Program-made: the position numbers and the translations under genes | The notes under the pieces: generated by a model | Databases searched by the model: none | Seen by the model: the letters and a program-made list of their open reading frames with translations, nothing else | What the model was told of the DNA's origin: nothing | Assembly (NCBI GenBank): GCA_005889445.1 | Contig: VBGS01000049.1 | Location: 1-33,329 of the forward strand | Source: Chloroflexota bacterium | Lineage (GTDB): Bacteria > Chloroflexota > Limnocylindria > P2-11E | Direction of reading: 5' to 3' | DNA length: 33,329 bases | Shown here: positions 6,513-30,652 of the stretch, one piece after another | Numbering within the stretch: the stretch's first letter is position 1 | Layout: every line of letters starts with the position of its first letter

Positions 6513-7232
6513 GTGCCGCTCAAGCAGTACAAGGCGACATCGCCCGTCCGGCGCTTCCGCCAATCGGCGTCGTTCGAGGAGCTGACCAAGGGGAAGGCCC
6601 GCGAGCGCAGCCTCACGGAGCGCAAGCTGCAACATGCCGGCCGCAACGCGCAGGGCCGCGTCACGACGCGGCACCGCGGCGGCGGGGAGAAGCGCAGCTA
6701 CCGCAAGATCGACTTCAAGCGGGATAAGGACGGCGTGCCCGCTCGCGTGCTCGCGATCGAATACGACCGCGTCGGCAATTGCCTGCCGCTCGAGCACATC
6801 CCGACGGGCACGCAGATCCACGGCGTCGAGCTGCAGCCCGGACGCGGCGCGCAGCTCGTGCGCGCGGCCGGCACCGCCGCGCAGCTTGTCGCCAAGGAAG
6901 GCGAATACGCGCAGATCCGGCTGCCCTCTGGCGGCATCCGCGTGGTCCACATCCGCTGCCGCGCGACCATCGGCCAGATCGGCAACGTCGAGCACGAGAA
7001 CCAAAAGGTCGGCGGCGCAGGCCACAAGCGACACATGGGCTGGCGCCCGGCGGTCCGTGGCGTGGTGATGTCTCCGCGGGACCATCCGCACGGCGGCGGC
7101 GAGGCGAAGTCGCCTGTCGGCGGCATGGCCCAGACCCCGTGGGGCAAGCCCGCCATGGGTCTCAAGACACGGAACAACCCGCGCACCGATCGTTTCGTCA
7201 CCGAACGTCCGAAGAAGAGGAAGTCCAAATGA
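6513..7232 (+). CDS. rplB: 50S ribosomal protein L2, apparently with an internal in-frame deletion (239 aa versus about 275 expected)
   Basis: GTG start; [38 protein letters not shown] then directly [25 protein letters not shown]...[14 protein letters not shown]; the about 40 residues normally between IEYDPNRSARIALL and GNALPLRNIPVGT are absent. Confidence 0.93.
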
Positions 7233-7588
7233 GTCGGTCAGTAAAGAAGGGACCCTACGTCGAGCAGTCCCTGAAAGAGAAGATCGAGATCCTGAACTCG
7301 CGCAGCGAGAAGAAGGTCGTGAAGACCTGGTCGCGCGCCTCGATGATCCTTCCGGTCATGGTCGGACACACCATCGGCGTCCACGACGGACGCCGTCACG
7401 TGCCCGTGTTCATCACCGAGAACATGGTCGGTCACCGGCTCGGCGAGTTCGCTCCGACACGGACCTTCCGTGGACATGGTCGGGCCGTCGCCGAGGCCGC
7501 CACCACTACCGCCGCGGCGGCCCCCGGCGCACCGGCCGCCGCCGGCAGCACGCCCGAGCGGTCGACAAACGTGAGGGCCGGGGCGTAA
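7229..7588 (+). CDS. rpsS: 30S ribosomal protein S19 with Ala-rich C-terminal tail
   Basis: ATG at 7229 overlapping the rplB stop; [20 protein letters not shown]...[53 protein letters not shown]. Confidence 0.97.
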
Positions 7589-7591
7589 GAC

Positions 7592-7645
7592 ACATGACTC
7601 ATTCCATTCGTCATGTCCTGTACGTGGACCTCCTTACGGAGGTCC
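7592..7645 (+). promoter_or_regulatory. Tandem hairpins in the rpsS-rplV spacer; the second occludes the rplV Shine-Dalgarno
   Basis: Hairpin I: ACATGAC(7592-7598)/GTCATGT(7610-7616), 11-nt loop. Hairpin II: GGACCTCC(7626-7633)-TTAC-GGAGGTCC(7638-7645), perfect 8-bp stem containing the GGAGG 9 nt upstream of the GTG start at 7652. Confidence 0.6.
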
Positions 7646-7651
7646 TGTAAC

Positions 7652-28115: not shown

Positions 28116-28138
28116 CCCGCACGCTGGCGGTGCGGGTC
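28114..28138 (+). terminator. Strong hairpin at the glmS stop codon; terminator-like but without a clear U-tract
   Basis: GACCCGCAC(28114-28122)-GCTGGCG-GTGCGGGTC(28130-28138), perfect 9-bp stem. Confidence 0.45.
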
Positions 28139-28314
28139 CTGTCCCCGGTCGCGGCCCGCCCGCGCTCGCGCACCCTCCCCAGCCGCGCCGCCGTGGAATC
28201 GGTCTCGCTCCGCCGCGTTGCGGCGCGGCCGGGGCCCCGGGGGGCCCGCGCGTCGCGCGGGCAGACCGCTCCCGGTGCCACCCGCACCGCCACCGCTCTG
28301 CGGATCTTCTCCTC

Positions 28315-28683
28315 GTGAGTTCAGAGGTGGGCATCGACATCATCGAGACGGCACGCATTCGGAATGTGTTCGAGAAGTACCCACGGCGCTTTCTCGATCG
28401 CGTCTACACCGAGTGGGAGCAGCTGTACTGCCGGAACAACATCCTGCATCTCTCCGGTCGGTGGGCTGCGAAGGAGGCGGTGTCGAAGGTGCTCGGGCTC
28501 GGCGTTCGCGGGGTCGGCTGGCGCGAGATCGAGATCCGCCGCACCCGCGCGGGACAGCCGACGGTGACGCTGCATGGCCGCGCGGCCGCTCGCCGCGACG
28601 CGCTCGGTCTTCGCGATCCACTCTCCGTGTCGATCTCCCATATTCGCGATCTCGCGGTCGCGGTCGCCGTGGGCCTGCGCTGA
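28315..28683 (+). CDS. acpS: Holo-[acyl-carrier-protein] synthase
   Basis: GTG start; VGIDIIETARIRNVFEKYPRRFLDRVYTEWEQLYCRN...SGRWAAKEAVSKVLGLGVRGVGWREIEI...SVSISHIRDLAVAVAV. Confidence 0.95.
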   Translation: MSSEVGIDIIETARIRNVFEKYPRRFLDRVYTEWEQLYCRNNILHLSGRWAAKEAVSKVLGLGVRGVGWREIEIRRTRAGQPTVTLHGRAAARRDALGLRDPLSVSISHIRDLAVAVAVGLR

Positions 28684-29573
28684 GCGAGGGGTCGGCCACC
28701 GCGCTCACCGCTCGCGTCGTGCGAGCCGTCGTGAAACCGCTTCCGAAAGATGCCGGGAAGGAGACTCGCGGCCGCGTGCTCATCGTCGGGGGCTCGCTTC
28801 GCTATCCCGGCGCGATCCTGCTCGCGTCTCGCGCGGCGCTCCGCTGCGGGGCCGGCGTGGTGACCGTCGCGGCGGCGCGCTCGGTGACCGAAGCGATCGC
28901 CGGCGAAGACCCCAACGTGACCTTCTTTCCGCTCGCTGAGGCGCAGCCCGGCGTCGTCGCGACCGGAGCGGCCGCGCAGCTGTCGACGCTCGCTGGAGAG
29001 AAGACGCGCGTCATGCTCCTGGGGCCCGGCCTGGCGCACGGTCCGGGGACCGACGACTTCGTGGCCGCGGTGCTTCGCAACGCTCGGGCTCTCGCGACGG
29101 TCATCGACGCCGACGGGCTGAACGCCCTGGCACGAACCGAGGACTGGCGCGCGCTCCTTCCCGCGAAGACGATCCTGACGCCGCACGATGGGGAGGCCGC
29201 GCGGCTCGCCGGACGCGTCGTTCCTGCAGGGGCGGCGCGCGTCGTCTTCGCTGAACGGCACGCCCGCGACTGGGCCGCGGTCGTGGCGCTGAAGGGGCCG
29301 GTCACGGTCGTCACGGACGGCAAGAAGACGTATCTGCACGACCATCCCAATCCGACGCTCGGGGTCGGCGGATCGGGCGACGCCCTGGGCGGAGCGATCG
29401 CGGCGTTCGTCGCGCGCGGCCTGTCCCCGCTGGCCGCGGCCGCGTCCGGGGTGTGGATCCACGGCCGAGCGGGCGCTCTCCTGGCGGGCGAGGTCGGCGA
29501 GTCGGGCGCGCTCGCGACCGACATCGTCGACGCGCTTCCACGTGCGCTCCGTGAAATAGTCGAGACACGATGA
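28680..29573 (+). CDS. nnrD: ADP/ATP-dependent NAD(P)H-hydrate dehydratase (YjeF C-terminal domain family); start uncertain (CTG 28680 or GTG 28719)
   Basis: GRVLIVGGSLRYPGAILLASRAALRCGAGVVTVAA, VIDADGLNAL, TILTPHDGEAARLAG, VVALKGPVTVVTDG, LGVGGSGDALGGAIAAFVARG. Confidence 0.88.
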   Translation: MSEGSATALTARVVRAVVKPLPKDAGKETRGRVLIVGGSLRYPGAILLASRAALRCGAGVVTVAAARSVTEAIAGEDPNVTFFPLAEAQPGVVATGAAAQLSTLAGEKTRVMLLGPGLAHGPGTDDFVAAVLRNARALATVIDADGLNALARTEDWRALLPAKTILTPHDGEAARLAGRVVPAGAARVVFAERHARDWAAVVALKGPVTVVTDGKKTYLHDHPNPTLGVGGSGDALGGAIAAFVARGLSPLAAAASGVWIHGRAGALLAGEVGESGALATDIVDALPRALREIVETR

Positions 29574-30652
29574 CCACATCGGAACCCATCCGCTCGACCG
29601 TCGTCGACGTCGATCTCGACGCCATCACCGAGAACATCGCGGCGCTGCGCGCCCGCGCGAAGGCCGAGGTGATCGCCGTGGTCGAGGGCGTCGTCCTGCG
29701 CGAAGCCGGAGTGAGCGGCCCGATCCTGATCTTCTATGGCCCGACCGACCCCTCCGAGCTCGCGCACGCCGTCGCTCAGGATCTGGTTCTGGTCATCTGG
29801 GACGAGCAGCGCGCCCGCGCGCTGAGCCAGACGGCGACCGCGCTCGGGCGTACCGCGCGGATCCACTTCAAGGTGGACACGGGGCTCACCCGACTTGGCT
29901 CGCCGCTCGACGAGGCGCGCGCCCGCTACCGCGCGATCCGCGCCCTGCCGCGGATCGAGGTCGACGGGATCTTCACGCACTTCGCGACCGCGGACAGTCC
30001 CGACCCTTCCTTCGCGCGCACGCAGATCGCGCGCTTCCGCGAGGTGCTGAGCTCGCTCGATGAGCTGCCTCGACTCGTGCACGCGTCGGCGAGCGCGGGC
30101 GTCGCCGCGTTCGGCGAGGTCGACGGAACGAACGCGGTGCGTCCAGGCCTCGCGGTGTATGGCCTGCACGCGGCGCCGCACCTGGCGTCGGCGATGCCGC
30201 TTCGCCCGGCCCTTCACTGGCAGTCGCGCATCCACCGGATCGCGGCCGTCCCGAAGGGCACCGGCGTGTCGTACGGGCACGAGTACCGGTTGCCTCGGGA
30301 TGGCCGGATCGCCACGGTCCCCGTCGGCTACGGCGACGGGTTGCCGCGCATCGCCGGCAAGAGCGCGACGGTGGTGGTTCGCGGCCGGCGGGTCGGTTTC
30401 GCTGGACGGGTCTGCATGGACCTGGTCATGCTCGACGTGACCGAGGTCGACGGCGCGCGTGAGGGCGATGAGGTCGTGCTCATCGGATCGCAGAACGGAG
30501 CTGCCCAGACGGCCGAGGAGCTGGCCGCGGCGTGCGGAACGATCAGCCACGAGATCGTCACGGGCATCCGTCGGCGTGTCCCTCGCCGCTATTTCCGCGG
30601 GGGACAGCTCGTCGCGACGCGCACCTTGCAGGGAGGGCATCGCTCTCGATGA
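29570..30652 (+). CDS. alr: Alanine racemase, apparently lacking about 30 aa including the PLP-binding Lys
   Basis: VDLDAITENIAALRARAKAEVIAVV fuses directly to EGVVLREAGVSGPILIFYGPT; the rest (HFKVDTGLTRLGS, FTHFATAD, VSYGHEYR, VPVGYGDGLPR, GRVCMDLVMLDVT) is intact. Confidence 0.9.
   Translation: MTTSEPIRSTVVDVDLDAITENIAALRARAKAEVIAVVEGVVLREAGVSGPILIFYGPTDPSELAHAVAQDLVLVIWDEQRARALSQTATALGRTARIHFKVDTGLTRLGSPLDEARARYRAIRALPRIEVDGIFTHFATADSPDPSFARTQIARFREVLSSLDELPRLVHASASAGVAAFGEVDGTNAVRPGLAVYGLHAAPHLASAMPLRPALHWQSRIHRIAAVPKGTGVSYGHEYRLPRDGRIATVPVGYGDGLPRIAGKSATVVVRGRRVGFAGRVCMDLVMLDVTEVDGAREGDEVVLIGSQNGAAQTAEELAAACGTISHEIVTGIRRRVPRRYFRGGQLVATRTLQGGHRSR

Follow-up and report, generated by a model that had tools for sequence, protein, structure and literature searches.

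Four essential genes in a draft genome of a Chloroflexota bacterium each appear to have lost one short internal block, with the flanks joined seamlessly. Is this a property of the organism, or was it introduced when the genome was assembled? The window, that is, the whole stretch of DNA that was analysed, is the entire contig C234 (33,329 nt) of a metagenome-assembled genome (MAG) of 2.12 Mb in 254 contigs, which is 80% complete and 3.8% contaminated. This genome is GC-rich (about 68%), and the window gave no match to a plasmid collection. For the comparison, eleven relatives from its own genus and family were aligned to the window. Where labels are needed, the window's MAG is G000, and the other MAGs compared include G001-G010 and G020.

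All four genes lie on the + strand, and family profiles confirm their names as well as revealing the missing stretches. The gene for ribosomal protein L2, rplB (6513..7232), is 120 nt (40 aa) short and remains in frame, with no N at the junction (6767/6768). All eleven comparable relatives carry the block, and the NCBIfam profile TIGR01171 is matched in two stretches, the second of which begins at profile position 124. The gene for ribosomal protein L6, rplF (11853..12334), is without 73 nt at 11973..11974, a loss that breaks the frame (+1). Its N-terminal and C-terminal halves therefore lie in separate frames, and the match to TIGR03654, which lies in the downstream frame alone, starts at profile position 64; here too, the block is carried by 11 of 11 comparable relatives. 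Further along, glmS (glutamine-fructose-6-phosphate transaminase, 26364..28115) has an in-frame loss of 93 nt (31 aa) at 27007..27011, a block carried by all eight comparable relatives. Alanine racemase, alr (29570..30652), lacks 90 nt (30 aa) in frame at 29683..29684. The residues lost from alr include the conserved KADAYGHG block, and the corresponding DNA is carried by all seven comparable relatives.

These alignments bear out most of what the initial annotation had read from the DNA: each of the four genes is without one contiguous block that is present in all 7-11 comparable relatives, three losses keep the frame while that in rplF breaks it, and the other genes of the cluster look full length, with no further consistent loss of at least 24 nt found in the 33 kb window. 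The size range it had given (79-120 nt) holds at its upper end, and its lower end is corrected to 73 nt, the loss in rplF. None of the four junctions, which it had proposed to look for in relatives, occurs in the comparable ones; the losses are private to the window's genome.

Other features were observed in the aligned stretches. At 7588-7647 of the window, a spacer between ribosomal-protein genes holds an insert of about 62 nt that is missing from 10 of 11 relatives and resembles inserts of G002 and G020. In locus L031 (G008:C99), rplF contains an in-frame, GC-rich insert of 33 nt near position 8000, which is absent from the other relatives compared. A dispersed repeat of 75-95 nt with two hairpins (about GAGCGAGGAGCGGCTTTGCCGCGACGAGCGAGTCAACCCGCCTGGGGCGTGTCTCCCGGCGAAGCCGGAGATTGAGC) occupies intergenic spacers, at sites that mostly differ per species. 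Examples lie in L023 (G004:C278) at about 3522-3599 and 4313-4387 (approximate coordinates, corresponding to joined positions 8521 and 9312 without the offset), in L028 (G007:C1) at about 1160-1240, and in L027 (G006:C12) at about 6250-6340 and 6690-6780. Six genus-mates carry two to five copies of this repeat per 100 kb, whereas no copy was detected in G001, G002, G003 or G009, or in the 120 kb searched of the window's MAG. Searches of the window, L023 and L027 against Rfam gave no match.

To place the four losses in a wider frame, a census was made of homologous stretches of fourteen genomes, of which about 1 Mb was covered by at least three relatives. A loss was called if 24 nt or more were additionally present in no fewer than 75% of relatives. 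The clean set comprises losses of constant size inside genes; candidates whose size varied among relatives or that were partly intergenic (for example, G001_C100 1922, G000_C8 6614 and G007_C258 12186) were left out. Nineteen clean losses were obtained across the fourteen genomes, with sizes of 66-171 nt and a mean of 103 nt.

The census also covered part of the remaining genome, in line with a proposal of the initial annotation, and returned four more clean losses in the window's MAG (113, 97, 68 and 111 nt), among them lgt (113 nt), ribF (97 nt) and lepA (111 nt). This makes eight in the 96 kb compared, a rate with which four in 33 kb is in keeping. G001-G006 contributed the other eleven, all private, including losses in rplB of G005 (105 nt), glmS of G004 (104 nt), rpsC of G006 (95 nt), rpsC of G002 (171 nt) and lepA of G003 (120 nt). 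While rplB, glmS, lepA and rpsC were each hit in two species, the position of the loss differs, and no loss among the 19 clean cases is common to two species. G007, G008, G009 and G010 showed no clean unmarked loss, indicating that the rate varies between MAGs.

The gaps that the assemblies do mark, as runs of N, offer a second line of evidence, as their true length can be taken from relatives. In about 556 kb sampled from the window's MAG, eight short N runs were present, six of which could be sized. Runs of 25, 1, 34 and 27 N stand for 102, 84, 118 and about 91 nt, respectively, while a run of 23 stands for 86 nt and one of 99 for about 197-206 nt. These six runs (1-99 N) are thus short by 63-107 nt, a shortfall that matches the unmarked losses of 68-120 nt in the same MAG. 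In relatives, three of four sized runs are short by 78-132 nt (1 N for 79 nt, 131 for 247 and 92 for 224), and the fourth is sized correctly (75 N for 77 nt).

One marked gap is particularly informative. On either side of the 23-N run, identity to G001:C99 is about 99.4-100%, high enough for that contig to count almost as a second, independent assembly of this DNA. Since that contig holds 86 bases at the site, it is the gap length that is at fault and not the organism. For the unmarked junctions, no near-identical assembly was found, the best relative there being 93% identical. A further observation involves G001:C99: positions 1 to about 2400 of L220 (G000:C16) are about 99.4-100% identical to it, after which identity falls abruptly to about 75%, which points to a scaffold that is chimeric or else to recent interspecies transfer.

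Taken together, the private, frame-blind losses and the undersized N runs make it very probable that the four apparent deletions arose in short-read metagenome assembly, as scaffold joins at which a gap was closed without any N. At each site, an unsequenced gap of some 70-120 nt would have lain between two contigs that read pairs linked, with the scaffolder deriving the gap length from the insert size. If that estimate is biased roughly 60-130 nt too short, a positive value would leave a short run of N, and a value of zero or below would leave the contigs butted together with no N, such that a gene looks seamlessly shortened. As the N runs go down to a single letter, estimates should also reach zero or below, where no N would appear. 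We infer that non-positive estimates produce seamless joins, and the window junctions are presumably scaffold joins of this kind. Less in keeping with this account are the slight excess of in-frame losses, the one correctly sized N run in a relative and the MAGs that show no clean unmarked loss. The initial annotation had likewise favoured a systematic assembly artefact, a judgement that stands, although neither of the causes it suggested (graph collapse, and polymerase skipping of structured GC-rich blocks) is supported by the comparisons set out below.

An error in the assembly graph or chimeric reads, with nearby stretches joined through a short repeat, through collapse of a bubble or by a read that had switched template, would likewise yield private, seamless and frame-blind losses at low coverage. 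However, no direct repeat, overlap or microhomology beyond chance was found at the junctions of the 19 clean cases: breakpoint ambiguity, or junction homology, averages 0.8 nt, compared with 0.6 nt when deletions were simulated in these sequences, which is at chance level and far below a k-mer overlap. The joins were thus guided by no repeat or overlap, which makes graph collapse unlikely. This class of artefact also leaves the equal shortfall of the marked N gaps unexplained, and we regard it as improbable. Dropout in the library or at the polymerase, whereby amplification or sequencing passes over structured blocks rich in GC, could draw on the GC-rich genome and on the need for some cause of the coverage gaps. 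Nevertheless, GC is 0.68 both in the lost blocks and in their flanks, and the folding energy (MFE) per nt is -0.393 in lost blocks versus -0.392 in random segments of the same loci. Equal composition and folding energy speak against polymerase skipping, and dropout as the explanation is highly improbable.

Biological readings were weighed as well. Real deletions, by a decay or mutational process that removes blocks of 70-120 nt and that is either tolerated or recent, would accommodate the three of four window losses, and the 10 of 19 overall, that keep the frame. This is a slight and non-significant excess of in-frame losses over one third (binomial p=0.065). After selection in essential genes, almost all losses would be in frame, and hence the nine of 19 that break it, including rplF in the window and rpsC, glmS, lgt and ribF elsewhere, argue against losses filtered by selection. 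Their size distribution is also unlike that of natural indels, because no clean private loss of 24-65 nt was seen in a screen that went down to 24 nt. Together with the lack of any loss common to two species, the junctions without direct repeats and the equal deficits in marked scaffold gaps, this makes real deletions very improbable. A lineage-wide process that cuts blocks of about 100 nt from essential genes, with cells tolerating or repairing the products, has a slighter chance still. Slippage between direct repeats was considered as a specific route and set aside because of junction homology, frame and privacy: slippage or microhomology deletions resemble the present cases in that one contiguous block of about 100 nt is lost between exact flanks, and differ from them in that here there is no junction homology beyond chance, no class below 66 nt, and frame-breaking in indispensable genes. 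The least probable explanation of all is a mechanism that restores or tolerates the missing blocks, such as bypassing, fragments supplied in trans or an altered ribosome. The essential nature of the genes is all that speaks for it, whereas the loss sites differ between species, the genes are unrelated, and a search for the blocks in the rest of the genome, covering contigs of 3 kb and above, returned a chance match only (E=0.38). Translational bypassing (hop) elements do share with the present genes a difference of one short block between gene DNA and product. Bypassing skips extra DNA, though; as the DNA here is short rather than extra, it would be unable to restore what is missing.

If scaffold joins are responsible, the origin of the assemblies becomes relevant. 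Seven genus-mates are MAGs named 'Chloroflexi bacterium isolate CF_n', whose scaffolds are named in the pattern 14_1009_02_40cm_scaffold_n. This naming fits a grassland soil study of 60 samples (PMC6784897), to which at least seven genus-mates would thus belong. In that study, reads were trimmed to 200 nt and IDBA-UD (k 30-200) was the assembler for nearly all samples; the single megahit sample was also scaffolded with the IDBA-UD scaffolder, and scaffolding errors in bins were corrected at a later stage (PMC6784897). The window's MAG probably comes from the same study and assembler as its named genus-mates.

Local assembly errors have been suspected to be especially common with IDBA-UD (PMC7111523). 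What is described there is similar in kind, with local errors that reads did not support and with scaffolding gaps inside genes; here, marked gaps are mis-sized in the very MAG that has the unmarked losses. The errors described there differ in consisting of unsupported sequence and of N placed over real overlaps, whereas here real sequence is missing without any N. No paper was found in the literature that describes exactly such unmarked, sequence-losing joins, nor one on a gap-size bias of IDBA-UD.

Whether the fault follows the study or the lineage was approached with a conservative protein-level screen of ribosomal-protein clusters for abrupt losses, in which some known cases went undetected. 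Abrupt losses were detected in 3 of 18 soil-study loci, compared with 0 of 62 other loci (Fisher p=0.01). Two of the three (L117 and L118) belong to Chloroflexi far from the window's genus. As the other loci also come from more distant relatives, this contrast between studies serves as supporting evidence only.

In summary, the shortened genes are most likely an artefact of a draft genome and not new biology. The fault is common to genus-mates of the same study and to some distant Chloroflexi from it. If the rate of eight losses in 96 kb were to hold genome-wide, extrapolation would put about 150-180 silently shortened stretches in this MAG. This highlights a warning about data quality, as unmarked joins leave no sign in the sequence and can be mistaken for gene loss, for pseudogenes and, in ribosomal-protein trees, for indels.
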